From a virus, in IMG/VR virus record IMGVR_UViG_3300033144_006987, positions 1-30,150 of that record: a stretch of DNA of 30,150 nt, one strand, 5' to 3'. A model generated the notes under the pieces. It was not told the origin of the DNA. It searched no databases and saw nothing but the letters and a program-made list of their open reading frames with translations. The position numbers were made by a program, and so were the translations under genes. This document shows, piece by piece, positions 3,165 through 24,158 of this stretch; position 1 is the stretch's first letter, and every line of letters begins with the position of its first letter.

Positions 3165-3451
3165 CACCCCATCCATTCACAATTAGCGAAGTTTCTTTGT
3201 GAAACCTCCAAACAAGAACTTTCTGCCAAACAATCTAATTCTTTATCCATTTGGGTGAGTATGGAAAGAAGATCGCTGGTGCCTGTGCGCGCCAAACAGA
3301 TACCAGTGTTGGGATCTGCCAACACGACGTGAAGTTTACCAAGTTGGCTATTGTCTTCTTCCACAAAAGCTATAGCCGACTCATGGCCGATCATCGGCCT
3401 CTCATTAATGATAAGGCCGTGGGATCCTGGTGCTACATGGTAAGTTTGCAT
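3164..3451 (-). CDS. Hypothetical protein (95 aa)
   Basis: Not recognised. It reads as a small mixed alpha/beta domain: beta-rich N-terminus (MQTYHVAPGSHGLIINERP), a middle with GKLHVVLADPNTGICLART, then a helix (LLSILTQMDKELDCLAES). Three cysteines lie in the last third. The ATG is preceded by CCGGAGATAGGCAA. Conserved element B (3499-3526) lies about 50 nt upstream, so this gene probably starts a transcript. Confidence 0.6.
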   Translation of the reverse strand: MQTYHVAPGSHGLIINERPMIGHESAIAFVEEDNSQLGKLHVVLADPNTGICLARTGTSDLLSILTQMDKELDCLAESSCLEVSQRNFANCEWMG

Positions 3452-3498
3452 TTGCCTATCTCCGGTTGGTTTCTGCCCCTGCTTGGGTATAATTAAAG

Positions 3499-3526
3499 TA
3501 GCACATTGTGATCCTCTTTAATATCA
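3499..3526 (-). promoter_or_regulatory. Conserved upstream element, copy B
   Basis: Plus-strand TAGCACATTGTGATCCTCTT followed by TAATATCA. It matches copy A (351-380) and copy C (6910-6935) and runs into the stop codon of the upstream gene (3524-3526). On the minus strand TTATAC lies a short way downstream and could act as a -10. Promoter or operator function is inferred. Confidence 0.5.
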
Positions 3527-3727
3527 TGACCTATCTGGTAAAGGAACAACTTTATTATCTGTTTTCCATTCACCACACCAATCAGTTTCCTTCACAACAG
3601 GATATCGTTTAGATCCTTCCACATTAAATGGGGGAAATCTTCTGCACCATATTATATCACCCATTATAGCAGTTTTTCTTTTCCAAGGATCTTTACTGAA
3701 TTTGCAATTTCTACAAGATTCCGTCAT
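3524..3727 (-). CDS. Small zinc-binding protein (67 aa)
   Basis: Four cysteines sit in the order CRNC (residues 5-8), then a CRRFPP, then a WCGEW near residue 52. This C-x2-C ... C-R-x-P-P ... W-C-G-E pattern is one I associate with small phage proteins of unknown role, and it would bind one zinc ion. I chose ATG 3727 because it overlaps the upstream stop by ATGA and follows GGGGAGATCTGGC; a start 15 nt earlier is possible. Role unknown; nucleic-acid or protein binding is plausible. Confidence 0.7.
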   Translation of the reverse strand: MTESCRNCKFSKDPWKRKTAIMGDIIWCRRFPPFNVEGSKRYPVVKETDWCGEWKTDNKVVPLPDRS

Positions 3728-3939
3728 GCCAGATCTCCCCATAAACCACCACCAAGAGTAATTTTCACATCACGATTATCACCATATTTTTCATGGTCAT
3801 ATTTGTTAACATAAGTATGGCCATTCATCATACAAAAATCCAATCCATTATCCCAATCTTTTTTAGCATCAGCAAGTTTCTTATAGCTACGACCGTAAGC
3901 GCCCTGCACTTGATAAAATGTGTCACATATCATAGTCAT
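3724..3939 (-). CDS. Hypothetical protein (71 aa)
   Basis: Not recognised. The sequence suggests one small alpha/beta unit (YQVQGAYGRSYKKLADAKKD, then GLDFCMMNGHTYVNKYDHEK) ending GGGLWGDLA. Two ATGs are in reach: 3939, directly after the upstream TAG, and 3933, which has better spacing from GGAG. Either adds or removes only two residues. Confidence 0.6.
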   Translation of the reverse strand: MTMICDTFYQVQGAYGRSYKKLADAKKDWDNGLDFCMMNGHTYVNKYDHEKYGDNRDVKITLGGGLWGDLA

Positions 3940-4374
3940 CTACTCCTTTTTCTTTATAGAAGGAGTAGATAACTCTCCCACTATATTGTGTGCCTTGATC
4001 ATCTCTAGGGACATTTCTTCTTTCATAGAATCTATAAATGCTTTTACAGGTGGAGAAGTTACTCCAGTTTCTTTTACAGCTATTACAAGCATATCTCGCT
4101 GCTGATATCTAAGAAGACTCATGATTTCAGATGGTTTGCCACCTCTCTTTATTGTTCTACTAAGAAGAATTCCCCCAACCTGTGCAATCGCTTTATACTG
4201 AACCAGACTTGAAAGATCATCTTCTTCAAACTCGGTTTTCGTAGCTACTATTTGAAATAATTCACAAGCTTTATCACAAGAAAGTAAAAAATCTGTTGCT
4301 TGTTTTTTAACAAGATCTTCAATAACCCGCTTATCATCAGGAGAAAAACTGTTTAGATTTCTAGGATCAGCCAT
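3940..4374 (-). CDS. Helical hypothetical protein (144 aa)
   Basis: Not recognised. Predicted to be mostly helical and acidic, with SPDDKRVIEDLVKKQATDFL, then a central segment with GGILLSRTIKRGGKPSEIM, and a short lysine-rich end (SIKKKE). The last codons and stop (AAGGAGTAG) also provide the ribosome site for the next gene, so the two are coupled. The ATG overlaps the upstream stop as TAATG. Confidence 0.65.
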   Translation of the reverse strand: MADPRNLNSFSPDDKRVIEDLVKKQATDFLLSCDKACELFQIVATKTEFEEDDLSSLVQYKAIAQVGGILLSRTIKRGGKPSEIMSLLRYQQRDMLVIAVKETGVTSPPVKAFIDSMKEEMSLEMIKAHNIVGELSTPSIKKKE

Positions 4375-4634
4375 TATTCTATCCTCACAATATCATCTTG
4401 AGAACGTAAGTCTTCCTTCCCAAGAAGATTGCTATGTATTAATTGGAAACCATAATCGCCAAGGAATACGCAACTATCAACATCGTCCTTGGCTGCTTCC
4501 TCTATACAGAATGCGAGGAATTTAAGCAAAGCATGGTGTGAATTTATACAATTGTAGATATGAATACAGGTGTGTGTCCAACCAGCTAGTTCATAGCGTT
4601 TAACACGATAGAAACTTTTATCATCATTTGCCAT
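4374..4634 (-). CDS. Hypothetical protein (86 aa)
   Basis: Not recognised. Rich in histidine and cysteine (GWTHTCIHIYNCINSHHALL, then FLAFCIEE and DSCVFLGDYG), which could bind metal, though no standard motif is clear. Preceded by a 100-nt leader from the hairpin at 4692-4731. The ribosome site is poor (GGTCTAGGCAA). Confidence 0.6.
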   Translation of the reverse strand: MANDDKSFYRVKRYELAGWTHTCIHIYNCINSHHALLKFLAFCIEEAAKDDVDSCVFLGDYGFQLIHSNLLGKEDLRSQDDIVRIE

Positions 4635-4691
4635 TTGCCTAGACCTTTACCCTTGCCATAGTTAACCCTACCACATAGAATTCCCCAAGAG

Positions 4692-4731
4692 CAGCCCCAA
4701 TTGTCCTGTATTTATCTCTCAATTGGGGCTG
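4692..4731. terminator. 12-bp perfect inverted repeat, possible terminator
   Basis: CAGCCCCAATTG (4692-4703) and CAATTGGGGCTG (4720-4731) form a perfect 12-bp stem with a 16-nt loop. It lies in the gap between two minus-strand genes, just after the stop of a candidate small gene. No T-run follows on either strand, so intrinsic termination is uncertain; RNA processing or protein binding are alternatives. A smaller inverted repeat GTGATC/GATCAC (4745-4765) lies next to it. Confidence 0.55.
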
Positions 4732-4735
4732 GCCC

Positions 4736-4816
4736 TTACCACTTGTGATCTGGGTCTTTGATCACGGTAATTGACAAACCCTGATGGCCACCACAGCAGC
4801 CAAGAACTCTGGTCAT
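4736..4816 (-). CDS. Candidate 26-aa peptide
   Basis: The frame starting at ATG 4816 reads MTRVLGCCGGHQGLSITVIK and ends DPDHKW, just before the hairpin at 4692-4731. A strong ribosome site (AGGAG) lies upstream. The same site could serve ATG 4820 in another frame, giving a 33-aa peptide (4719-4820) rich in tryptophan. I prefer the first because its sequence is more protein-like and it ends before the hairpin. Low confidence. Confidence 0.35.
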   Translation of the reverse strand: MTRVLGCCGGHQGLSITVIKDPDHKW

Positions 4817-4830
4817 TCATACAGGAACTC

Positions 4831-5223
4831 CTATCTTTCCACCATCCTTAATGGAATTCTCATTTCCTTTGCATAACGATATGTTGCCCATGTTCCACTT
4901 CTTAAAACCTCTTGATTAGTATGGGGAACAATTAGCATAATATCGCTGCATCTTACAATAACTTTATTACGATCTAAAAACGGTAATATATCCATAGTAA
5001 AATCTGCTTTTGATCCCACCCCTATTGGACCTGGATGCTTGATAATTCTATATCCTAATTCTCTTGCTATTTCTGCAGCTTCTACATCAACACCCATGCA
5101 ATCACCATGTCGGAATTTCTTGGCTCCCTGTTCTTTAAAACCTATCAGTAATTCTGTAATTTTACTAATTTGTTTTCTATTCGCACCATAGCGAGTTCCG
5201 CTTATGCCTACATCAATTATCAT
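4831..5223 (-). CDS. SLOG-superfamily Rossmann-fold protein (130 aa)
   Basis: The N-terminus MIIDVGISGTRYG is the first strand and nucleotide-binding turn of a SLOG/DUF2493-like fold. HGDCMGVDVEAAEIARELGY (about residues 39-58) supplies the conserved GxD after the second strand, then HPGP, RNKVIVRCSDIMLIVP and LRSGTWATYRYAKE follow in the family order. Members bind nucleotides or related small molecules; some SLOG proteins act as nucleotide-processing enzymes or sensors. The length is typical for a single domain. Its ATG overlaps the stop of the 42-aa gene by ATGA. The exact ligand is not readable from the sequence. Confidence 0.75.
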   Translation of the reverse strand: MIIDVGISGTRYGANRKQISKITELLIGFKEQGAKKFRHGDCMGVDVEAAEIARELGYRIIKHPGPIGVGSKADFTMDILPFLDRNKVIVRCSDIMLIVPHTNQEVLRSGTWATYRYAKEMRIPLRMVER

Positions 5224-5348
5224 AATAGATTCCCCGCAAAGGAAGGGCCACGATCAACCTGCCACAACCAGCCATGCAGCGGAATCGCAACCCTCCCTTC
5301 TACCTCGGTCAGTGCTAGGCAAGGGCATCCGACCTGAGGATTCAACAT
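5220..5348 (-). CDS. Small hypothetical protein (42 aa)
   Basis: The product MLNPQVGCPCLALTEVEGRV continues for 22 residues to GPSFAGNLL. It contains a CPC motif. The start at ATG 5348 overlaps the upstream stop (TGA 5344-5342) and follows AGAGGAAATAATAGC, and its TGA overlaps the SLOG gene's ATG by ATGA. Coupling at both ends is the main evidence. Function unknown. Confidence 0.6.
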   Translation of the reverse strand: MLNPQVGCPCLALTEVEGRVAIPLHGWLWQVDRGPSFAGNLL

Positions 5349-5569
5349 GCTATTATTTCCTCTATTGTAGAACAATAATTCTCTTCTAAATAAACACAAA
5401 CTTCTCTCCAAGTAACAAGCTCACCTACAGGAATTCCCTTTCCCCATATTGTATCGTTCATTTCGTCTTCACATAAAAGATCAAACCGGGAATCTTCTTC
5501 TACTGTTCCATAGCATTTTGTTTTTCCCCCATTTTTACGAGTGTGTGTGAAGTTTACATGTCTGTTCAT
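5342..5569 (-). CDS. Small hypothetical protein (75 aa)
   Basis: Not recognised. Basic N-terminus (MNRHVNFTHTRKNGGKTK), acidic remainder with four cysteines, and WREVCVYLEENY near the end. The ATG follows AAGGGGCAGAAT. It is the first gene after the promoter at 5627-5653, so it heads a transcript covering the genes down to about 4700. Confidence 0.65.
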   Translation of the reverse strand: MNRHVNFTHTRKNGGKTKCYGTVEEDSRFDLLCEDEMNDTIWGKGIPVGELVTWREVCVYLEENYCSTIEEIIAC

Positions 5570-5588
5570 ATTCTGCCCCTTATATGAT

Positions 5589-5615
5589 ATCTAACTTTAT
5601 AAAATAAAGTTAGAT
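5589..5615 (-). promoter_or_regulatory. 11-bp AT-rich leader hairpin
   Basis: ATCTAACTTTA (5589-5599) and TAAAGTTAGAT (5605-5615) form a perfect stem with a 5-nt loop. It lies at the very start of the mRNA predicted from the promoter at 5627-5653, where it could protect the 5' end or be an operator. No T-run on the minus strand. Confidence 0.6.
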
Positions 5616-5626
5616 GTCAGCCTGTA

Positions 5627-5653
5627 ATTATAGCCTACGCCCCCAATTGTCAA
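5627..5653 (-). promoter_or_regulatory. Consensus sigma-70 promoter with 15-bp spacer
   Basis: On the minus strand a perfect TTGACA (5653-5648) and a perfect TATAAT (5632-5627) are separated by 15 bp. Both hexamers are consensus, but the spacer is two bases short of optimal, which suggests reduced or regulated strength. It faces the 75-aa gene. Confidence 0.65.
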
Positions 5654-5672
5654 AAGACAAGTAAATGGTATC

Positions 5673-5711
5673 CCCCTGTCAACCCAAACCGAAGAAACAG
5701 GTTGACAGGGG
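5673..5711. promoter_or_regulatory. 12-bp perfect hairpin with CCGAAGAAA loop
   Basis: CCCCTGTCAACC (5673-5684) pairs with GGTTGACAGGGG (5700-5711). The 15-nt loop contains CCGAAGAAAC. The hairpin at 27326-27358 has a different stem but also carries CCGAAGAAAC at the 3' side of its loop. It sits between the stop of the upstream gene and the promoter at 5627-5653. Confidence 0.65.
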
Positions 5712-5716
5712 AACCA

Positions 5717-5753
5717 CACCATCAGTATCGCAGTGACGCTTCATACTGTGGTG
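5717..5753. promoter_or_regulatory. Bulged 11-bp hairpin
   Basis: CACCATCAGTAT (5717-5728) pairs with ATACTGTGGTG (5743-5753) with one bulged base. It is adjacent to the hairpin at 5673-5711; a short CCCGG/CCGGG hairpin (5757-5772) follows at the end of the upstream gene. Together they form a row of stem-loops. Confidence 0.45.
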
Positions 5754-5762
5754 CCTCCCGGC

Positions 5763-6173
5763 TCATTCCGGGATTAAAGAGGTGCTACCATCAGCACCTA
5801 ACCAAACTGCCTTTCCATCCCATTTACCTATCTCACCAAATTCCACCCCAAGCTCTTCAATTGTAGATCTGGCAGATATGGAATCCCCAACATGATTAGT
5901 GCCCAAGAGAAGACCATATCCAGCAAGTGGAGTGGGATAACCTTTCCACTTGAACCAGCCATATTTCGGATCAAATAACCCTTCATCATCAACGAACATA
6001 TCATCACTGCGATGATCATATGTTTCTGGGGATGTTTCTGGGGATGTTTCTCGGATAGACCCAGCAAGTGTGAAACAGCTTGCATGAATAAACTCATAGA
6101 TCTGGGTATAAGGCCCAGAATAGACTACCTCGGTGACTGTCTTCTTAACCGGATCGATCAGTATAGCCCTCAT
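5763..6173 (-). CDS. DUF3846-like phage protein (136 aa)
   Basis: MRAILIDPVKKTVTEVVYSG, then YEFIHASCF, then a VDDEGLFDP and a PLAGYGLLLG segment follow the order seen in a family of phage proteins resembling DUF3846, whose role is unknown. An in-protein SPETSPET repeat (residues about 44-51) comes from a 12-nt tandem duplication. The gene ends at a row of hairpins. Its ATG overlaps the upstream stop as TAATG. The family call is from memory of the pattern and should be treated as tentative. Confidence 0.6.
   Translation of the reverse strand: MRAILIDPVKKTVTEVVYSGPYTQIYEFIHASCFTLAGSIRETSPETSPETYDHRSDDMFVDDEGLFDPKYGWFKWKGYPTPLAGYGLLLGTNHVGDSISARSTIEELGVEFGEIGKWDGKAVWLGADGSTSLIPE
6020..6052. 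repeat. 12-nt tandem repeat inside a gene
   Basis: ATGTTTCTGGGG occurs at 6020-6031 and 6032-6043, followed by a partial third copy. It is in frame and encodes a repeated S-P-E-T. This is a typical slippage duplication. Confidence 0.7.
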
Positions 6174-6877
6174 TATTCTATCCTCCGCACTGAGCCTTTA
6201 CCCTCTACAGGGCGATTTAAGTTCACACTATCACCCGCAATTGCCCCTTGTATAAGAGCGCCACTTTGCACGCGAATCTTAGATTTCTTAATTTTATACA
6301 GCTTAATCCCCACAGATATTTCAAATCCTGTTTTTATAATCTCCATTTTCTTAACAACAAGATCAGTTCCAGAGCTTATGATAATAGGATTTCGTGAATT
6401 TATAATATCGATCATCTTATTATTAACGCGCTTGGCAAAGCCTAAATGAAAAGACCAGTATTCAGTATGACGACTTTTTGTTGGGATGGGGTTATCCTTA
6501 AGATAAAATTTCCATGATCTTTCCATACAACCACGAATCATATCTATCAGATACTCTGCCATTTCAACATCTGCATCAAAACCATAAAACATACCCTTCA
6601 TGGTATTCACATCCCACCAAGTCTTAACTTCACAAAACTTGGAGATCGTAACAAGACAATATTTATTAATGGGGTGCTTGGTCTTAAGGCGATTATCATG
6701 ATCGCCTTGCCGCATACCTTCAGTAGCAGTAATCTTTTCCAACTGTGCTTCAGTGATTTGGTGCTTCGCCATCATCTTTTCTGCTTGGGCGATAGCTTCC
6801 ATAACTTCTGCTTCCGTAGAAGCTTGGTCCTCTGCCTTACGGCGGAGTGCCTTGATGATATCTACATATTTTTCCAT
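6173..6877 (-). CDS. DUF2786-domain protein (234 aa)
   Basis: The first 50 residues (IIKALRRKAEDQASTEAEVM, then IAQAEKMMAKHQITEAQLEK) match the helical DUF2786 pattern of K-A-E--A-S-TE-E---A---A--LM-K--I. The rest is a mixed region with FCEVKTWWDV, a DADVEMAEYLIDMI helix and SFHLGFAKRVNNKM, like other DUF2786 phage proteins. The function of the family is not established. The ATG lies after AAAGGGCAATCCAA, and conserved element C (6910-6935) lies just upstream, so this gene likely starts a transcript. Confidence 0.75.
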   Translation of the reverse strand: MEKYVDIIKALRRKAEDQASTEAEVMEAIAQAEKMMAKHQITEAQLEKITATEGMRQGDHDNRLKTKHPINKYCLVTISKFCEVKTWWDVNTMKGMFYGFDADVEMAEYLIDMIRGCMERSWKFYLKDNPIPTKSRHTEYWSFHLGFAKRVNNKMIDIINSRNPIIISSGTDLVVKKMEIIKTGFEISVGIKLYKIKKSKIRVQSGALIQGAIAGDSVNLNRPVEGKGSVRRIE

Positions 6878-6909
6878 TTGGATTGCCCTTTGCTGCCTAT
6901 GTTTATGCC

Positions 6910-6935
6910 TAGCACAGCCGCGATCCTCTTAATAC
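6910..6935 (-). promoter_or_regulatory. Conserved upstream element, copy C
   Basis: Plus-strand TAGCACAGCCGCGATCCTCTT, beginning at 6910, shares the TAGCACA and CGATCCTCTT blocks with copies A and B. It lies 30-60 nt before the DUF2786 gene start and just after the stop of the gene at 6960. On the minus strand CATAAA follows the element and may be a -10. Confidence 0.5.
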
Positions 6936-6959
6936 TTTTGAATATCACCTACAAGACAA

Positions 6960-7250
6960 TTACCTTAAAATCATTGCCATAACTACTTCATCTGCACGAT
7001 CTTCACTATTCTTAAAGGCTACATCTCCTTTTCGTCCATCCCAACCCTTAGGAATATAATCAGGATTACATTCTATCATTATATTAAGATCCCAAACAAC
7101 TTTATTAAAGACAACATAACAAGGTTCAAAAAGATTTATTCCTTTTATTTGATCTATTTTAATTCCTTTCTTTTGGGCAGGAGATAATTCCACATAACTT
7201 AATCGTTTACGGAAAGCTTGCCTAACAGGATCAACAACGGGACGTTTCAT
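6960..7250 (-). CDS. Hypothetical protein (96 aa)
   Basis: Not recognised. A basic N-terminus (MKRPVVDPVRQAFRKRLSYV) leads into a mixed segment with PCYVVFNKVVWDL, then GWDGRKGDVAFKNSEDRADE. The ATG overlaps the upstream stop by ATGA and is preceded by GGTGGTAGG. Confidence 0.6.
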   Translation of the reverse strand: MKRPVVDPVRQAFRKRLSYVELSPAQKKGIKIDQIKGINLFEPCYVVFNKVVWDLNIMIECNPDYIPKGWDGRKGDVAFKNSEDRADEVVMAMILR

Positions 7251-7564
7251 CCTACCACCTTCTTAGGTTTTTTAAACTCAAGATAATCAAGATTCATAAT
7301 AAACTCACTACCATCTTCTTGAACAAGAGTAAACATACAATCTCCAAAATCCAAAAGCATTTCTTTCATAATGCCATAAATTTCATGTTGATCCATTATA
7401 GTTTCAAGAGCATCTAAAAAAGTAACACTCCCCCTACTTGCATTAGAATATGCTATAGCATGAGTTTGAACAACACTCATCAAACCAACGATATCTCTAG
7501 CTTGCTGAAGAGTAGATACCGTGTATTCCTTTATGCCATCCTTGCAGCTTTGCCTAAGTAACAT
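7247..7564 (-). CDS. Hypothetical protein (105 aa)
   Basis: Not recognised. Predicted helical core (VSTLQQARDIVGLMSVVQTH) and a beta-rich end (CMFTLVQEDGSEFIMNLDYL) closing with KKPKK. One of the best ribosome sites in the window (GGAGGCAAACG before ATG 7564) suggests strong translation. The 110-nt gap upstream holds a GGGCAA/TTGCCC inverted repeat and no convincing gene. Confidence 0.65.
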   Translation of the reverse strand: MLLRQSCKDGIKEYTVSTLQQARDIVGLMSVVQTHAIAYSNASRGSVTFLDALETIMDQHEIYGIMKEMLLDFGDCMFTLVQEDGSEFIMNLDYLEFKKPKKVVG

Positions 7565-7674
7565 CGTTTGCCTCCATCTGCTGCCTGTGCCTGTCCCTTG
7601 TGGTGTAGGATGACCTATTATGGGGCAACCTACCTTAAAACAAGCTTGCCCTGTAGGGTGTCCTCCTGCAACCC

Positions 7675-8007
7675 CTAATGTTCTGGCTTTACCCTATAAT
7701 GATCCTCATTTAATATGTCATGCATATCTTGAAAAACATCGGCAAATTTACGCCCCATCCATTCTGGGGCATTAATCATAATCTGTTCTACTTTAGCTCC
7801 TTTCGGATAATATATTTTTCCAAAATTATCCATCCCACAACTTGTCCAAAGATCTACATCTTTTGGTATATCTATAATTTTAATAACATTGATCTGTCGT
7901 GCATCAGCACCATGACTTAGAGCATTGAACAATGCTTCAACATCACTCATTCCTTTGCCCCAAGCTTTACGATCTGTGGCAATGACATATATAGTTCTCT
8001 CTGTCAT
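7675..8007 (-). CDS. Hypothetical protein (110 aa)
   Basis: Not recognised. It begins MTERTIYVIATDRKAWGKG, with alternating strands and helices (QINVIKIIDIPKDVDLW, IMINAPEWMGRKFADVF). I place the start at ATG 8007 because it overlaps the upstream stop by ATGA; a start 27 nt earlier is possible. Near its 3' end the sequence TGATCCTCATTTAATAT resembles the conserved upstream element but is coding. Confidence 0.6.
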   Translation of the reverse strand: MTERTIYVIATDRKAWGKGMSDVEALFNALSHGADARQINVIKIIDIPKDVDLWTSCGMDNFGKIYYPKGAKVEQIMINAPEWMGRKFADVFQDMHDILNEDHYRVKPEH

Positions 8008-8216
8008 CTCTTTATCCCACAAATTACACTCCAAGCAGCATTTTCAATCTTATCAGCAAGTTCTCTTAATGCTCTAACAGACATATCTTGAGTTCCATCA
8101 TATGAAATTAAAAGATGTAAAACTTTTTCTCTAATTTTACTAGTAGATTCTGCTATTTCAGCAGTTGTGAATACAGTCTCAGATTGACTACGTTTATCTG
8201 TCAGGCCATCGCTCAT
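8004..8216 (-). CDS. Small helical hypothetical protein (70 aa)
   Basis: Not recognised. Mostly helical (TTAEIAESTSKIREKVLHLL, then MSVRALRELADKIENAAWSV). The ATG overlaps an upstream stop as TAATG, and the stop overlaps the next start by ATGA. Confidence 0.55.
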   Translation of the reverse strand: MSDGLTDKRSQSETVFTTAEIAESTSKIREKVLHLLISYDGTQDMSVRALRELADKIENAAWSVICGIKR

Positions 8217-8425
8217 TATTCATCCCTCGTGCATTTCAGCACCATTTCGGTTCCCTTAGCCACCATCACAGTATTAATATAAATTTTTTCTATCCCAATT
8301 ACTGTTATTAAAATGGGTATCCAATTTCCTTTAGCCTTGCCTTGATGGATCTGTATTTTTAATGAGGTTGAAGTATCTTGTGTGGTGCTCCCAGATTGAG
8401 AAGAGATCGTCCCAAGTTTTTCCAT
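8216..8425 (-). CDS. Candidate small protein in an overlapping frame (69 aa)
   Basis: The open frame ending at 8216 has its TAA overlapping the next ATG as TAATG, the coupling seen throughout this block. Its last 45 residues lie outside the gene at 8331-8645 and include a hydrophobic stretch (WIPILITVIGIEKIYI) and a charged tail. No good start is visible; ATG 8425 lies inside the other gene without a clear ribosome site, and a near-cognate start after AAAGGAAATTGG near 8320 is possible. Low confidence in the start and moderate in the frame. Confidence 0.35.
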   Translation of the reverse strand: MEKLGTISSQSGSTTQDTSTSLKIQIHQGKAKGNWIPILITVIGIEKIYINTVMVAKGTEMVLKCTRDE

Positions 8426-8645
8426 GTAGATTGATGAACCAACCACTAGCCTCTTCAGCAAACGCGGTTTCAGCCTCACTATCTTCCAAATATGGAAGCG
8501 CGATAACAGAGATGAGATCATCTGTTTTTGCTCCTTCAAAGTAAATTTCTATCATATCTTGTAGACGATGTTCGTCTATCAGCATACCCATATTGCTTAC
8601 TGCCATTAAGCAAGCAACCAAGGATCTTTCACGAGTTGTAATCAT
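8331..8645 (-). CDS. Hypothetical protein (104 aa)
   Basis: Not recognised. Acidic, with a helical N-terminus (RERSLVACLMAVSNMGMLID), then EDSEAETAFAEEASGWFINL and a W-rich part (TWDDLFSIWEHHTRYF). The ATG overlaps the upstream stop by ATGA, which supports this frame over the alternative reading frame covering the same DNA. Confidence 0.6.
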   Translation of the reverse strand: MITTRERSLVACLMAVSNMGMLIDEHRLQDMIEIYFEGAKTDDLISVIALPYLEDSEAETAFAEEASGWFINLHGKTWDDLFSIWEHHTRYFNLIKNTDPSRQG

Positions 8646-18383: not shown

Positions 18384-18955
18384 TTGTTTGGTTCTCCACA
18401 AACATGATGATCTGTATCTTCTCCCCCACATACGGGACAGGTTGTGCGCTGGCTTGCTAATACTATAGTATCCCCCGCATCTGCGCCCCCAGCGCCGCAC
18501 ACAGCAGGGGCAGGGGATGGCGTAGCGCCAGCCCCGGCCACCTTACCACCCGGGGCAGGGGTTTGGCCACTAGCGGCCATCTCAGAGCTCGTAATCAGTT
18601 CGTCTAAAATAATATTAGCATAACTAAGATTATGTCTATTTGTCCAAGTAGTTAAAATATCTAGCAATAGTGCTTCTTTCTTAGGGATATCATTTTCTTT
18701 ACAAAATCTTTCAGTATGAAAATTATCATAATATTTAGGTCTGCACTTCATATATTGATTTCTATATCTTGATCCCTTATTTTTTAATTTCCATAAAAAG
18801 TGTTTTGCTTTCTTTAGATCTTCAACACCATCTTTTTTCCAATGTCTACATATATATCTAGTAGCACCATATTCAAGAGGACCAAGACCAACATCTATAG
18901 CCCAGTCCCAATGTTGATACTCGCTCTTGTAGTGGTCACCACCTACTTGTTCCAT
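18380..18955 (-). CDS. DUF3310 protein with Pro/Ala/Gly linker and Zn ribbon (191 aa)
   Basis: The N-terminal 60 residues are a clear DUF3310 (SaV-like) domain: GGDHY (5-9), LGPLEYGATRYICRHWKKDG, then EDLKKAKHFLWKL. Its biochemical role is unsettled, though annotated at times as a nucleotide kinase. A central helical part follows. Then comes a GC-rich stretch coding AASGQTPAPGGKVAGAGATP and more Pro/Ala/Gly, and finally a small zinc-ribbon-like end CPVCGGEDTDHHVCGE. The linker differs in base composition from the surrounding AT-rich DNA (18470-18580), which suggests a recent addition. ATG 18955 overlaps the HD gene's stop as TGATG; GTG 18958 would also work. Confidence 0.8.
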   Translation of the reverse strand: MEQVGGDHYKSEYQHWDWAIDVGLGPLEYGATRYICRHWKKDGVEDLKKAKHFLWKLKNKGSRYRNQYMKCRPKYYDNFHTERFCKENDIPKKEALLLDILTTWTNRHNLSYANIILDELITSSEMAASGQTPAPGGKVAGAGATPSPAPAVCGAGGADAGDTIVLASQRTTCPVCGGEDTDHHVCGEPNK

Positions 18956-19479
18956 CACATATCCCTGTCTTCATCTAGTTCTAGGATTTGTCCTAATCTA
19001 ATTTTATTATAAAAATCTTTAATTGGTTTGGGTAATTCTGCTTTATCTAACATTCTTGTTATTCTAGCTAATCTTTGTCTTGCATAATTATTTCCTAAAT
19101 TTAATTCATAATTTATAAATATGAAAAATTCAAGCATATCTACAGCATGGATCCAATTTCTTTCTCTATCATCTAATATTGGGAGCATACCATATTTCAT
19201 TAAGATTGATTTTTCTTCTCCTTCGTATATTTCTTTTAATACAGGACAATTAAATTTTGCAGGAGCAGGTAAATCACCAAGAAATCTTTCTCCCATATCG
19301 TGAAATTGTAAAGCCTTAATCATATTTATAGAAGGATCTGGGCAAAGAATCAATAATAAACTTAGTGCATTAAAAATGTGCAAACCAATAGTTGGATCAG
19401 AATTAGTAGGAAAACAGTGGCAACGCTTTACCCGACCACCTTCAATCGCTAAGAGGATGCGCTGTAGTTCGTTTTTCAT
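18955..19479 (-). CDS. HD-domain phosphohydrolase, YfbR/DatZ-like (174 aa)
   Basis: The metal site is visible: H34 (IGLHIFNAL), H60-D61 (LQFHDMGERF), and D114 (HAVDMLEF). GDLPAPAKF (68-76) is a hallmark of YfbR-type 5'-deoxynucleotidases and the related DatZ dATP triphosphohydrolase of 2-aminoadenine phages. These enzymes strip phosphate from particular deoxynucleotides. The gene overlaps the thymidylate synthase homologue by 38 nt. No PurZ is seen in this window, so I do not infer a 2-aminoadenine genome. A nucleotidase that lowers an unwanted pool, perhaps dTMP/dTTP, would fit thymine replacement. Substrate assignment is inference. Confidence 0.8.
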   Translation of the reverse strand: MKNELQRILLAIEGGRVKRCHCFPTNSDPTIGLHIFNALSLLLILCPDPSINMIKALQFHDMGERFLGDLPAPAKFNCPVLKEIYEGEEKSILMKYGMLPILDDRERNWIHAVDMLEFFIFINYELNLGNNYARQRLARITRMLDKAELPKPIKDFYNKIRLGQILELDEDRDM

Positions 19480-20494
19480 GTGCTTGTTTCTTTCTTCTGA
19501 TTAACCATGCTTGACATGCTGTGCGCCAATCATCAGCAGCACAAACTTTGATATCAAGAAGTGCTGCATCGTGACAACCTTTTTCACCACCCCTATAAGT
19601 CAACATTGCCTTATAGATAGGAATAGCAACTTTCCTAAAGAAACTATCTTTAAATCCAATTGCCCAAGGTTCTTCTAAAAACATTTTTAACTCATTAAAC
19701 CATTGTTCAATAGGAGTGTTAACAATTCTAAATGGTTTAAGTGAACGATATGGATCAAATGAAGGTGCATCAATAAGATGTGCTAAAGGATTTAATGTTC
19801 TTTGATATGCATGAAAATTATTTGAGATCTGCCAATAACGTCCAACTTCACAGCCTATACCAGCAGCCATTACTTCTTGAAGAACAGACATATGAACTGC
19901 ATTAGCACCATAGGCACCCCAGATTATATCATTACTACGACAGCACACTGTCATATCTAATTTTCGTTCTGCATTACATCTAGAAAAATAAATATGGGTG
20001 TTACATGGAAAATCTTTTCCTTTATTTCCTAAATCATAAGTAGGATCCCACATAGTTAATACAGCACGACGATCATCAGGATTTTCTTTTAAAATTGCTA
20101 TAATTACTGAAAGTTGATCAATAGGTTTATAGTTACCTGCTTCACTTGCCAAATAATCACAAAAATGTCCTCTCCACCTTTTACCATAAGCACCATGAAA
20201 AGTTTCACCATCATCACTAAACTGTGCAAAAGAAGGTAACACAGTGTCCATATAATCTACATCATTACGACCACCAAGCATCCATAAGCTTTCAAGAAAA
20301 TGAAAAAATGGGTTAGCATCACGATCAGCATTTAATAATACTCTTTGTGTAGGATTTCTATATACAGTTGTCACCGGACTATTCGCAACAATTACCTTAC
20401 CAGCACGACTTTCTTGGGCTACTCCAAAATAATGAAGAAGACGGATACCTTCACGTAAAGCCTGCTCTACGTTTTCTACTTCTATAACATGCAT
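19442..20494 (-). CDS. Thymidylate synthase homologue, possible dUMP hydroxymethylase
   Basis: A ThyA-fold enzyme of 350 aa. The active site can be read: GAYGKRWRG (101-109), RRAVLTMWDP (142-151), the catalytic cysteine C164 in DFPCNTHIYF, and CRSNDIIWGAYGANAVHMS (185-203), in which N198 matches the asparagine that selects dUMP over dCMP. The usual PCH after the catalytic cysteine is PCN and the NIASY segment is NAVHM, so it is clearly divergent from host ThyA. It could make dTMP, or 5-hydroxymethyl-dUMP as in phages with modified thymine. The overlap cluster with a hypermodification-family protein favours the second option. It starts 2 nt after the glycosyltransferase gene's stop. Confidence 0.85.
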   Translation of the reverse strand: MHVIEVENVEQALREGIRLLHYFGVAQESRAGKVIVANSPVTTVYRNPTQRVLLNADRDANPFFHFLESLWMLGGRNDVDYMDTVLPSFAQFSDDGETFHGAYGKRWRGHFCDYLASEAGNYKPIDQLSVIIAILKENPDDRRAVLTMWDPTYDLGNKGKDFPCNTHIYFSRCNAERKLDMTVCCRSNDIIWGAYGANAVHMSVLQEVMAAGIGCEVGRYWQISNNFHAYQRTLNPLAHLIDAPSFDPYRSLKPFRIVNTPIEQWFNELKMFLEEPWAIGFKDSFFRKVAIPIYKAMLTYRGGEKGCHDAALLDIKVCAADDWRTACQAWLIRRKKQAHEKRTTAHPLSD

Positions 20495-20496
20495 GA

Positions 20497-21795
20497 TTAA
20501 GCCCCAAAGAAGTCTTGCATTACTTGGTCACATTTTGCAACTACACTATCCGGTTGCATACCGAAAGATGTATGATCACCCTCAGCGAGTGACAAAAACA
20601 TACTAGCAATTTTACCCCTTTCAAACAACTGTAACTTATCTCTTCCTGCTTCTTTATAATTTTTTACTATTGTATTGGGCATATTACTCACACCGAGTAT
20701 TATATCTGCATACCCTTGTGGATCTGTTCCAGTTGGAATAGGAACATAATGAATACCAGCTTGGAATATCTCACTACCCATGCCCAAAGGGCGAGCCACA
20801 GGAATAACACCACAGCGAATAGCATCAACGACTACACGGTTCGGATGACCTCCAACCTTGGAGTATTTGTTAGACCAGCTTGGGTCAACAAGAACACGTG
20901 ATTGTTTAAGCATAGAAGTCGCTATTTCAGCAGACCACCAGCCCTTATCAGGTCGCTGCATACCATTGTCAAGAGCAGCATCCCAGAATTTCATTCCAGC
21001 AAATGCATAGTCTAAACCTAAATCTTCATGATGGTAATACTGTGGCTTACATTTTTCTTCACTCACCATATAGCGATATTCAATACCTTCACCTACAACC
21101 CAACGAAACTCTTGATCTTTTCGTTCTGGCATATAAGCAATAGCTTCAATTAATTCATGAACATGCTTCCACGCTTTGAAGGTTTGCAAAGATATAAATC
21201 CAGTTGCTCTATCATCCCAAGGTGTATGTTCAATATCACTAAGATCTTGTGGATTTAATATCATTTTTCTCTTAATAGGAAATATATCAGCCCCATTATA
21301 AGCACAAGGATGAACACAGGCAAGGCCAGTAAGATTATCTGCAATGTGGAGAATGTGTGGACAAGCATTAGCACAGTTCCCATCATGAATGATAGCTATC
21401 TGTTTTGTATCATAACTAAGATCATAAAGATCCGACCAATCAGTATTACCACGATGTTCTGCAAGTTTTGTTGGAACAGGCACAGACCAAATAACAAGAT
21501 CATAGCTTTCTAATTTTGATTTTGTTTCATTTCTTCTCCACATACCCTTATAACCAAATCTATTCTTTGCTGGAAAATTCCAACCTTTACCCTGATGATG
21601 TTGTATTCCTGATGGACCCCATTGCCAAGTCGTATCAATCGCTTTATTATTTGCACGAGGATGTTTGCTCTTCCATGATAATTCAAGAAGATCTACTGTG
21701 TGGCCTAAGTCTTTAAAGCCACCAATCAATTGTTCAGTGTGGTTGACTATACCACCAAGATCCATAAGGGGGAAGAGACAGATTGCAATTTTCAT
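20497..21795 (-). CDS. GT-B fold glycosyltransferase (GT4-like, 432 aa)
   Basis: It should transfer a sugar from a nucleotide-sugar donor. The N-terminus MKIAICLFPLMDLGGIVNH is the first strand and glycine loop of a GT-B enzyme. The second domain has GFISLQTFKAWKHVHELIEA, then the donor-site region GGHPNRVVVDAIRCGVIPVA followed by RPLGMGSEIF, like the EX7E region of GT4 enzymes but with aspartate in place of the first glutamate. I chose ATG 21795 because it overlaps the FkbM stop by ATGA. Its place between a methyltransferase and a thymidylate synthase homologue suggests the acceptor is DNA 5-hydroxymethyluracil or a derivative. A surface glycan is an alternative acceptor. Confidence 0.8.
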   Translation of the reverse strand: MKIAICLFPLMDLGGIVNHTEQLIGGFKDLGHTVDLLELSWKSKHPRANNKAIDTTWQWGPSGIQHHQGKGWNFPAKNRFGYKGMWRRNETKSKLESYDLVIWSVPVPTKLAEHRGNTDWSDLYDLSYDTKQIAIIHDGNCANACPHILHIADNLTGLACVHPCAYNGADIFPIKRKMILNPQDLSDIEHTPWDDRATGFISLQTFKAWKHVHELIEAIAYMPERKDQEFRWVVGEGIEYRYMVSEEKCKPQYYHHEDLGLDYAFAGMKFWDAALDNGMQRPDKGWWSAEIATSMLKQSRVLVDPSWSNKYSKVGGHPNRVVVDAIRCGVIPVARPLGMGSEIFQAGIHYVPIPTGTDPQGYADIILGVSNMPNTIVKNYKEAGRDKLQLFERGKIASMFLSLAEGDHTSFGMQPDSVVAKCDQVMQDFFGA

Positions 21796-22469
21796 CGTTT
21801 CCATGCTCCTAGTGTCTGCCATAGTTTATCGTTATCAAGCACAGGTTCTTTAATACACTCCCAATTTTTAAATTGTTTCACCAATTTAGAAGCTGCTTCA
21901 AAGAAACCTTTTCCTTGTAAATGAATTTCCATAACTATTTGTTTCACATAATCTGGTAAACCATGTTCAAGTAAATCAAATTCAGCACCTTCAACATCCA
22001 TCTTTATAACTTCTGGTTTATATTGTTCTAGCATATAATAAAAATTCCCTGTGCTAACTTTAATAGGTATTCTACCTCGTCTTTGTATGATGCTAGAATT
22101 ACCTGGATTCTTACCTGATGGAGCAAGCCATAATTCTATATCTGCATCGTCACCTATGATTAATGCAATATGATGAATAGCATAGTTACCCTTCAATTTA
22201 AAAACATTAGTCTGGAGCATTTCAAAATTATAAGGTTCTGGTTCAAAGGCAATTACAAGACTTGCTCCATGATCACTCGCCCATAGTGTGAATGCCCCAA
22301 TGTTCGCTCCAATATCAAAGACAACTTTATCTTTAACATCTAGCATTCCATAGGAACGCTGTATCTCATTCACTACATAAGAATCGTATGTGCCACGACG
22401 ACATTGCACACCACGATGTTCATAGATTTCACGTTCTTCATATTCACCCCTGACCAGGACTCCGGGCAT
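21792..22469 (-). CDS. FkbM-family SAM-dependent methyltransferase (225 aa)
   Basis: The SAM-binding loop VVFDIGANIGAFTLWA (49-64) is followed by an acidic strand end IAFEPEP (73-79) and the FkbM-type KMDVEGAEFDLL (156-167). EIHLQGKG near residue 181 ends the fold. FkbM enzymes usually O-methylate small molecules or sugars. The gene overlaps the HMUDK/aGPT-PPlase-family gene by 26 nt and the glycosyltransferase by ATGA, and has its own site GGAGTAGATATC. O-methylation of the sugar added by the neighbouring glycosyltransferase is the simplest idea; the substrate is not shown by the sequence. Confidence 0.85.
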   Translation of the reverse strand: MPGVLVRGEYEEREIYEHRGVQCRRGTYDSYVVNEIQRSYGMLDVKDKVVFDIGANIGAFTLWASDHGASLVIAFEPEPYNFEMLQTNVFKLKGNYAIHHIALIIGDDADIELWLAPSGKNPGNSSIIQRRGRIPIKVSTGNFYYMLEQYKPEVIKMDVEGAEFDLLEHGLPDYVKQIVMEIHLQGKGFFEAASKLVKQFKNWECIKEPVLDNDKLWQTLGAWKR

Positions 22470-23334
22470 GATATCTACTCCTTGGTCTACCTTGGCCCAA
22501 CCTCACTCTCTCATATTTATCAAATTCACATAATTGGAATTGGATATCCGTGAGCCTTAATGGTGTAAAGGTAGTAGGCCACAGTTCATCACGCAATTCA
22601 TAAAGGTCTAGCATTATTTCAAGTGTTCTTTCAGCACTCCTAAAATAGACCATACCAGAAGGTGACTTAGGCTCATCGATGCCTGTAACACGGGCCGCGC
22701 CCCGGCGCGCACCGGGTCCAGAGGGGCTCCATATATTCCAATCGCTAGGTTGCCAACCTGTTGCCATTATCAAATCTAAGGTAACTTCCTTTGCCATAAA
22801 TCCAGATCCACCAAAACCATTAAGTGTCATCATCTGGTTAATAAATTTTTTCCAATCATTATGTCTATTAAGGCCAACTATCAAAGCACTAGCATGATCT
22901 GCTAATCCAGCAAGAAAGTATTCCGTTACTACTTCTTCTTTTGGTGCAGATATACCTTGATTCGTAATCACATAAGCACCAGTAAAAACTCTCTTTCCAT
23001 CTGCCCTTCTTCTTTGGGCATGACGAACTATCTTATCTGCATTGAATTCTTTCTGCCAGCCCAAAGAAATAAGAAACTCAGACCGCCCGAAATAACGGGC
23101 TATGCCACAATTATTGAGAATGATATCCCATCTAGTTGTGCTTGTAATATTCTCTTTGTAAAATGCAGCAAACTCTTTACTTGTCCTGTCGTTTTCTCTT
23201 CGGACATTAGTAAACTTATACTCCCTTAAAATTAGATTAGATGTCCATGGATAAAGTTCACCCGCCTCCTTTCGGAGGCGGATTGTTTCGCGCTCCACTA
23301 TGAAAGTGAAGAACGCTTTTGCTCGGGGGAGCAT
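22444..23334 (-). CDS. HMUDK-helical / aGPT-PPlase superfamily protein (thymine hypermodification)
   Basis: The 296-aa sequence follows the motif order of the phage family predicted to act on 5-hydroxymethyluracil in DNA (5-hmdU DNA kinase helical domain and alpha-glutamyl/putrescinyl-thymine pyrophosphorylases): ERETIRLRKEAG (14-25), PWT (29-31), FTNVRRENDR (41-50), FTGAYVITNQG (117-127), GFGGSGFMAKE (173-183), GPGARRG (206-212), and LCEFDKYERVRLGQGRPRSR (268-287). No P-loop kinase domain is attached, so it looks like the stand-alone form. In phages such as ViI and SP10, relatives work with a dUMP hydroxymethylase to activate or substitute the hydroxymethyl group. The gene begins as TGATG on the stop of the lysine-rich gene. 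Family call confident; exact reaction not. Confidence 0.8.
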   Translation of the reverse strand: MLPRAKAFFTFIVERETIRLRKEAGELYPWTSNLILREYKFTNVRRENDRTSKEFAAFYKENITSTTRWDIILNNCGIARYFGRSEFLISLGWQKEFNADKIVRHAQRRRADGKRVFTGAYVITNQGISAPKEEVVTEYFLAGLADHASALIVGLNRHNDWKKFINQMMTLNGFGGSGFMAKEVTLDLIMATGWQPSDWNIWSPSGPGARRGAARVTGIDEPKSPSGMVYFRSAERTLEIMLDLYELRDELWPTTFTPLRLTDIQFQLCEFDKYERVRLGQGRPRSRYHARSPGQG

Positions 23335-24158
23335 CAGTCAGCTTTCGCCTTCTTCTTATTTTTCTTTTCCTTACCTCCCTTTTTCGCAAGAGCGTCCTTG
23401 GCCTTCTTGGCTTCGGTAGCCTTCTTATCGTCAGCTACTTTCTTCTTCTCTGCTTTTTCAACTGCCTTTTTCTTAGCAGCATCTTTACGCTCAGCAGTGG
23501 CTTTTTCACGTGCAGTTTTCTTTTCAGCGCGCTCCTTATCACGCTTTACCTTAGCTTCAGCACGAGTCTTTTTAGCGATTTCAATAGCATCGCCAGGATA
23601 TTCACGACCCTTCCCCTTATACCATTCACGAATTTCCTTATCAATAACACTTTCACCCGGATCTTCCAGCTTCATAAGACCCAGCTTACAATACCAACCA
23701 ATCTTCCCGGCATGAATACCAGAAGCCTCCATGGCATCAATAACCCGCATCCCATCCTTATAACGATCCCAGACACCAGGACGTTGCGACTTATCGGGGG
23801 CAGTAACTTTCTTCACACGATGGAACATTGGTCGTGTTGGGCGCTTGACAACTTCAGGCAGATCACACTTCGGCATTCCACCAGCAACATCAGTTTTTGC
23901 AGCACGCGCCTTACCATCAGGCCCGCAAAGAACAGGAGTATAGCTCTCATCTTCCACGTGCTTTTGGTATTCAATAAGAACTTGCCAACAACCTGTCACA
24001 CCCTTGGGTTTTGACTGGAACTTCTGAATACGACTCCCACCAAGATTAACACCAACAAGATTTCGAAGCTTGGTAAGATCTTCAATAGACATACTCTCAA
24101 GATCGTGGGCAGTATATTCCTTCTCATTGAAGGTAATTTTATTCACAGCCATGTTCAT
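23334..24158 (-). CDS. Protein with long lysine/alanine-rich tail (274 aa)
   Basis: The N-terminal half has KITFNEKEYTAHDLESMSIE, then LTKLRNLVGVNLGG and a basic patch; the middle has a GKIGWYCKLGLM segment. From about residue 195 to the end the chain is almost wholly K, A, E and R (for example KKTRAEAKVKRDKERAEKKT), like histone H1 or bacterial histone-like tails. It should bind DNA or other polyanions. The N-terminal pattern reminds me of an uncharacterised phage family. It heads the operon containing the hypermodification genes; the 106-nt gap upstream may hold a promoter. The ATG follows GGGAGAAAAGTC. Function unknown. Confidence 0.7.
   Translation of the reverse strand: MNMAVNKITFNEKEYTAHDLESMSIEDLTKLRNLVGVNLGGSRIQKFQSKPKGVTGCWQVLIEYQKHVEDESYTPVLCGPDGKARAAKTDVAGGMPKCDLPEVVKRPTRPMFHRVKKVTAPDKSQRPGVWDRYKDGMRVIDAMEASGIHAGKIGWYCKLGLMKLEDPGESVIDKEIREWYKGKGREYPGDAIEIAKKTRAEAKVKRDKERAEKKTAREKATAERKDAAKKKAVEKAEKKKVADDKKATEAKKAKDALAKKGGKEKKNKKKAKAD

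Follow-up and report, generated by a model that had tools for sequence, protein, structure and literature searches.

What does a glycosyltransferase do in a phage gene cluster of the type that makes modified thymine? The question is raised by a 30,150-base fragment of an IMG/VR virus (IMGVR_UViG_3300033144_006987, positions 1–30,150; this whole stretch of DNA is termed the window), which is Mesyanzhinovviridae-like and related to Pseudomonas phage M6. An earlier note on this DNA had proposed that four consecutive, tightly joined minus-strand genes form a cassette for hypermodification of thymine. The open reading frames are present as a joined set, at exactly these coordinates:

22444..23334, minus strand: HEL, a stand-alone HMUDK-helical-domain protein of the 'aGPT-PPlase' family (PF18723), 296 aa
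21792..22469, minus strand: FkbM, an FkbM-family S-adenosylmethionine (SAM) methyltransferase (TIGR01444, PF05050), 225 aa
20497..21822, minus strand: GT, a glycosyltransferase (GT) of the GT-B type, 441 aa as called, conserved start at 21795
19442..20494, minus strand: TS, a divergent thymidylate synthase (TS) homologue (phrog_5131), 350 aa, with Cys164 in a PCN motif and Asn198

Comparative genomics strongly supports modification of thymine by the phages that carry this cassette, and sequence comparisons taken together with structure models make it likely that the cassette produces a glycosylated thymine in phage DNA.

The family assignments made in the note are borne out by profile matches and, for GT, by a structure model as well. 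HEL belongs to PF18723 (3.9e-32; 112 bits, cut-off 25). FkbM matches TIGR01444 (4.5e-23; 82.3 bits, cut-off 37.7) and PF05050 (4.2e-14; 53.5 bits, cut-off 22.7), and TS matches PF00303 (2.9e-21) and phrog_5131 (1.5e-111).

The variable slot between HEL and TS

A survey of gene neighborhoods gave 163 loci that carry HEL together with TS, and these form 106 clusters at 90% TS identity; GT and TS queries partly shaped the sampling of clusters, one search selecting for GT. GT is present in 38 clusters, a TET-associated glycosyltransferase (TAGT, PF20691) in 37, and the 5-hydroxymethyldeoxyuridine (5-hmdU) DNA kinase in 21. Ten clusters have none of these and no cluster has two together. Under a hypergeometric model that ignores relatedness, zero overlap has probabilities of 6e-15 and 5e-10. 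Mapped onto the TS tree, the four slot states require at least 22 changes, thus the slot has been exchanged repeatedly.

Gene orders seen are HEL-GT-TS, HEL-FkbM-x-GT-TS, HEL-FkbM-rSAM-GT-TS (rSAM, radical SAM) and GT-HEL-TS. The slot can also hold TAGT, a family that contains DNA glucosyltransferases of phages and includes the T6-type enzyme associated with di-glucosylated cytosine (PMC13390438), as well as radical SAM/SPASM, FkbM and NAD-dependent sugar epimerase-like proteins, and in one case a member of the 5-hmdU kinase family lies inside it. In minimal HEL-GT-TS cassettes (e.g. the survey loci L008, L010 and L002) GT is the only slot gene.

Loci of the GT family (n = 87) have TS in 85 cases, with a median gap of 1 nt, and HEL in 79, all on the same strand; some of those that lack TS or HEL end at contig edges. 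This survey could have set GT apart from TS and HEL and so spoken against an action on DNA, and it places them side by side. Single-protein scans of viral contigs with GT and with FkbM gave no match; an alignment query recovered 54 GT loci in IMG/VR. A tblastn search for the GT family drew a blank in 50,697 records of phages and 72,556 of plasmids, and no isolate that carries the family was found. At the DNA level, the cassette region has no match among phages.

The 5-hmdU DNA kinase (PF18748) was found neither in the window nor in 14 GT-bearing records (59–68 kb) nor in six TAGT-bearing records (≥60 kb); the search was positive in M6, Sonora and TM26. The amino acid:DNA transferase (ADDT, PF18724) was not found in the window, in any of the 10 GT or in any of the three TAGT IMG/VR records searched, and this search was positive in M6, Sonora and L071. 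The IMG/VR records may be incomplete, yet they match the complete M6 genome in length. Among the clusters, ADDT occurs in 14 of the 21 with the kinase versus 0 of the 75 with GT or TAGT. GT in turn was not found in kinase-bearing genomes (GT-bearing controls were positive in the same search), and PF20691 was matched in the TAGT class but in neither the window nor the GT-bearing genomes.

M6 and YuA (5-NedU; kinase, HEL, Nmad5, TS and HD) are of the same phage family type as the window and have the same HEL-slot-TS-HD-...-DNA polymerase A order, with HEL 29% and TS 49% identical to the window homologues. M6, however, has the PF18748 kinase, the PF18724 ADDT, a PLP (pyridoxal phosphate)-dependent enzyme and a radical SAM enzyme, whereas the window has FkbM and GT and neither kinase nor ADDT. 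(The known M6 chemistry is taken from PMC6449724, PMC11946847, PMC5977210 and Pfam names.) Since the kinase and ADDT are both missing, GT would replace that branch, and HEL cannot simply act on pyrophosphorylated hydroxymethyluracil. Judged from gene content, it is most likely that the glycosyltransferase replaces the kinase and acts directly on 5-hmdU in DNA. The note had GT acting on 5-hydroxymethyluracil in DNA; synteny and mutual exclusion agree with this, and the missing kinase and ADDT speak against an add-on to an amino-acid or polyamine pathway of the ViI/W-14/M6 type.

Predicted folds of GT and HEL

In a single-sequence family search, the window GT gave weak matches (PF00534, 7e-5, below the cut-off), and 11 of 13 members of the GT family match PF00534, the best at 4.7e-09. 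The AlphaFold2 model of GT (pLDDT 83) matches GT-B enzymes at 1e-11 and has 273 PDB matches at E ≤ 0.001, the top ones being GT4-type enzymes; GT therefore has a GT-B fold. Among the matches listed, the highest TMq (0.61) is that of the T4 DNA alpha-glucosyltransferase, with 10–12% identity, and the matched T4 structures include complexes with DNA that contains 5-hydroxymethyluracil (HMU). With this fold and this gene setting, it is quite probable that the GT-B enzyme glycosylates 5-hmdU in DNA.

The AlphaFold2 model of HEL is all-alpha (pLDDT 92) and has no PDB match. An HhH-DNA-glycosylase fold, suggested by a GFGGSGF..KE motif, was dropped for that reason. The best viral fold matches are HMUDK-helical proteins, among them those of phiRSL1 and PhiW-14 and the 637-aa SP10 5-hmdU kinase. 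HEL is retained in all three classes (kinase, GT and TAGT). The simplest reading, to which we give an even chance, is that HEL is a shared partner that recognizes hmdU in DNA and presents the base. A sequenced phage (MW202897) has TAGT, hydroxymethylase and HD genes without HEL, thus HEL is not strictly required. The cellular relatives of HEL (4 loci) have no GT or TS neighbors. Three alphaproteobacterial contigs (L186, L187 and L188) carry cellular or prophage copies of HEL with 42–43% identity and no TS or GT nearby.

The fold of HEL also weakly matches ADDT models, and charged residues (Asp, Lys and Arg) are invariant across 26 HEL homologues. On these grounds HEL might first attach a small group with a hydroxyl to hmdU, independently of the known kinase, and GT would then glycosylate that group, in the manner of Bacillus phage SP-15, where the DNA likewise bears a glycosylated, hypermodified thymine (PMC5977210). 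This route is unlikely, as there is no kinase to activate hmdU and the minimal HEL-GT-TS cassettes named above have no enzymes that make the added group. SP-15 also differs in that its sugar is attached to a dihydroxypentyl chain with a phosphoglucuronate and its gene cluster is larger and different.

The modified base and the role of FkbM

TS displays 49% identity to gp58 of M6, a phage with a 5-hmdU-derived base and thymine-derived modifications (PMC6449724). A profile of the TS family searched against the PDB matches the CMP 5-hydroxymethylase MilA at 6e-29, ahead of thymidylate synthases at 5e-20. The dUMP-type reading of N198 by the earlier note holds: the aligned residue is Asn in thymidylate synthases and Asp in MilA, and Asn198 is invariant across 19 TS homologues. 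This base-reading residue favors dUMP as the substrate. TS is proposed to be a dUMP hydroxymethylase, with the gene setting pointing to hydroxymethylation over methylation.

Were the synthase a dCMP hydroxymethylase, the cassette would glycosylate 5-hydroxymethylcytosine, as in T4. TAGT and relatives of the T4 alpha-glucosyltransferase do act on cytosine (PMC13390438), and a dCMP-hydroxymethylase was predicted for a TS-GT-GT set by the LuckyBarnes authors (PMC6588365). The invariant Asn198 in the window TS family, the 49% identity to the TS of M6, and the membership of HEL in the family of 5-hmdU kinase partners make a cytosine substrate very unlikely. In T4 and T6, which have glucosylated 5-hydroxymethylcytosine, a hydroxymethylase of thymidylate synthase fold is likewise followed by a DNA glycosyltransferase. 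The T4 alpha-glucosyltransferase resembles the GT model, and TAGT fills the same slot in sister phages. The differences are a C-type synthase as opposed to the U-type of the window, the presence of HEL and FkbM in the window, and the low identity to the T4 enzyme.

LuckyBarnes itself is a cultured Brevibacterium phage (NC_047851; locus L190, positions 4436–8451) with the order TS-TAGT-TAGT-HEL and a U-type TS (RSNDVMWGWSGIN). No 5-hmdU kinase or ADDT was found in it. It thus resembles the window in having a U-type TS, HEL and DNA-type glycosyltransferases without the kinase. It differs in that its glycosyltransferases are of the TAGT family and not of the window GT-B family, and no FkbM is seen in the annotated stretch. 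Contrary to the dCMP hydroxymethylation and cytosine modification suggested by its authors, the residue pattern predicts a dUMP substrate and a glycosylated thymidine.

In Microbacterium phage Zayuliv (MT889377; locus L192, positions 3388–8636), HEL is found with two TAGTs, a thymidylate-kinase-like ATPase and a TS homologue that has an apparent Asp at the dUMP/dCMP position (RSMDAVFGYRAD). HEL may therefore also partner a cytosine system.

FkbM is found within ~6 kb in 20 of the 38 GT clusters, 3 of 37 TAGT clusters, none of the 21 kinase clusters and 2 of the 10 others. The association with GT (20/38 versus 5/68 in all other clusters) gives a Fisher probability of 3e-7, uncorrected for relatedness. 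O-methylation by FkbM of the sugar on DNA is plausible, if a little short of an even chance. Surface polysaccharides are common substrates of GT4-like and FkbM enzymes. That fact, together with the frequent occurrence of FkbM apart from GT, could suggest that the two are operon passengers whose targets are host surface glycans or lipopolysaccharide, for superinfection exclusion, but this is very unlikely given that GT adjoins TS and HEL at nearly every locus, never shares a cluster with the 5-hmdU kinase or TAGT, and has no match outside this setting in the 50,697 phage records.

Proposed pathway and surroundings of the cassette

The proposed pathway has four steps. TS would turn dUMP into 5-hydroxymethyl-dUMP. 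The HD deoxynucleotidase encoded next to TS would help to remove dTMP, and the phage polymerase would then incorporate hmdU. After replication, the GT-B enzyme would take a sugar from a nucleotide-sugar donor and attach it to the 5-hydroxymethyl oxygen of hmdU in DNA; HEL, which serves the 5-hmdU kinase in other phages, would be its DNA/hmdU-recognition partner. Finally, FkbM would O-methylate a hydroxyl of the DNA-linked sugar. We infer the substrates, the order of steps, the identity of the sugar, and the roles of HEL and FkbM from the gene identities and their setting.

The predicted product is similar to base J of trypanosomes, also a sugar on 5-hydroxymethyluracil in DNA. The base J route consists of hydroxylation of thymine in DNA by JBP1/2, plus JGT (PMC6449724), whereas the hmdU of the window would arise at the nucleotide level and the sugar could carry an O-methyl group. 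A broader proposal is offered tentatively, and slightly less readily than the role of FkbM: HEL and the dUMP hydroxymethylase would bound a modular slot with an interchangeable kinase, GT-B enzyme or TAGT; GT with FkbM would yield an O-methylated glycosyl-5-hydroxymethyluracil, an analogue of base J; and HEL would be not a pyrophosphorylase but a module that recognizes hmdU in DNA in general.

Several observations weigh against this pathway. The GT4 EX7E motif is not intact in the window GT (GHPNRVVVD, with Gly325 and Asp333, compared with EPFGRVIVE in 4xso), so that by its sequence this is not a standard GT4 enzyme; the first Glu is Gly in most GT family members, and catalysis is unproved by the motif. 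HEL, from its ADDT-like fold, might have a catalytic activity of its own. With correction for the tree, the kinase/GT exclusion has the same direction on 4 pairs only and is underpowered. The absence of the kinase from the window itself holds for a 30-kb fragment, and a kinase may lie elsewhere in its genome. A GT homologue (34%) is present in L182 (3960–11741), a 23-kb fragment without HEL or TS. FkbM, inside the slot in the window, lies 4–5 kb away in many GT relatives, past the DNA polymerase gene, and 18 of the 38 GT clusters show no FkbM nearby. The tree-corrected FkbM/GT test is underpowered (a sign test on 7 independent pairs gives a median p of 0.5). The suggestion of the note that FkbM methylates the sugar added by GT thus agrees with the enrichment beside GT, and is weakened by the distances and by the clusters without it.

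The unit of genes extends beyond the four described above:

18955..19479, minus strand: HD, an HD-domain YfbR-like 5'-deoxynucleotidase (PF12917), 174 aa
23334..24158, minus strand: Lys-rich protein of no assigned family, 274 aa, immediately upstream of HEL
21792..21795, minus strand: ATGA overlap of the FkbM stop and the conserved GT start, read in the sequence; putative translational coupling

The HD gene overlaps TS by 38 nt and the open reading frame at 23334–24158 overlaps HEL by 1 nt; HEL and FkbM overlap by 26 nt and the GT-to-TS gap is 2 nt. Alignment with relatives places the common GT start at Met10 (MKI..., base 21795), which results in the 4-nt ATGA overlap and in the proposed coupling of FkbM and GT translation. 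The HD gene matches PF12917 with 27.4 bits (cut-off 25.9), was detected in 35 of the 38 GT clusters, and is of the same family as M6 gp59. TS is followed by the HD gene, a DUF3310-like gene, an exonuclease and DNA polymerase A; upstream of HEL are the Lys-rich protein and then ribonucleotide reductase. This gene order agrees with the M6/YuA replication region of Mesyanzhinovviridae. The 274-aa protein matched no Pfam or PHROG family, but is syntenic in the closest relatives with ~30% identity, kept between ribonucleotide reductase and HEL.

Other slot genes may add to the chemistry. Radical SAM/SPASM proteins recur beside GT, TAGT or FkbM (L004:9589-10671, L015:2425-3384, L025:5578-6489, L027:8849-9940 and L030:567-1574), and further tailoring of the sugar or base is possible. 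The GT neighbors in L182 are radical SAM proteins, of which one contains a B12-binding domain, and a DNA polymerase III alpha that carries a fused domain of the uracil-DNA-glycosylase family. A gene similar to NAD-dependent epimerase/GDP-mannose dehydratase (L016:8892-9842) adjoins TAGT in four clusters, which suggests a phage-made nucleotide-sugar donor. Proteins of 317–353 aa with no credible Pfam family lie in or beside HEL-TS slots that lack a known modifying enzyme (L027:9943-10926, L034:1072-2052, L124:5137-6093, L126:5933-6895, L127:5953-7014, L130:104-1057 and L132:383-1345) and are candidates for further types of DNA-modifying enzymes.

In this group of uncultivated phages, the cassette appears to be a variation on the known phage thymine-hypermodification pathway, with the kinase step swapped for a glycosyltransferase. 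If this is correct, direct glycosylation would form a third major branch of thymidine chemistry in phages, with GT or TAGT in 75 of the 106 clusters, a count that comes partly from a GT-selecting search. The phages would be a source of new DNA glycosyltransferases, potentially active on hmdU, and HEL would be reassigned, as an HMUDK-helical protein kept where the kinase was lost. DNA coated with sugars on 5-hydroxymethyluracil would be a new chemistry of DNA disguise, and a phage analogue of trypanosome base J.

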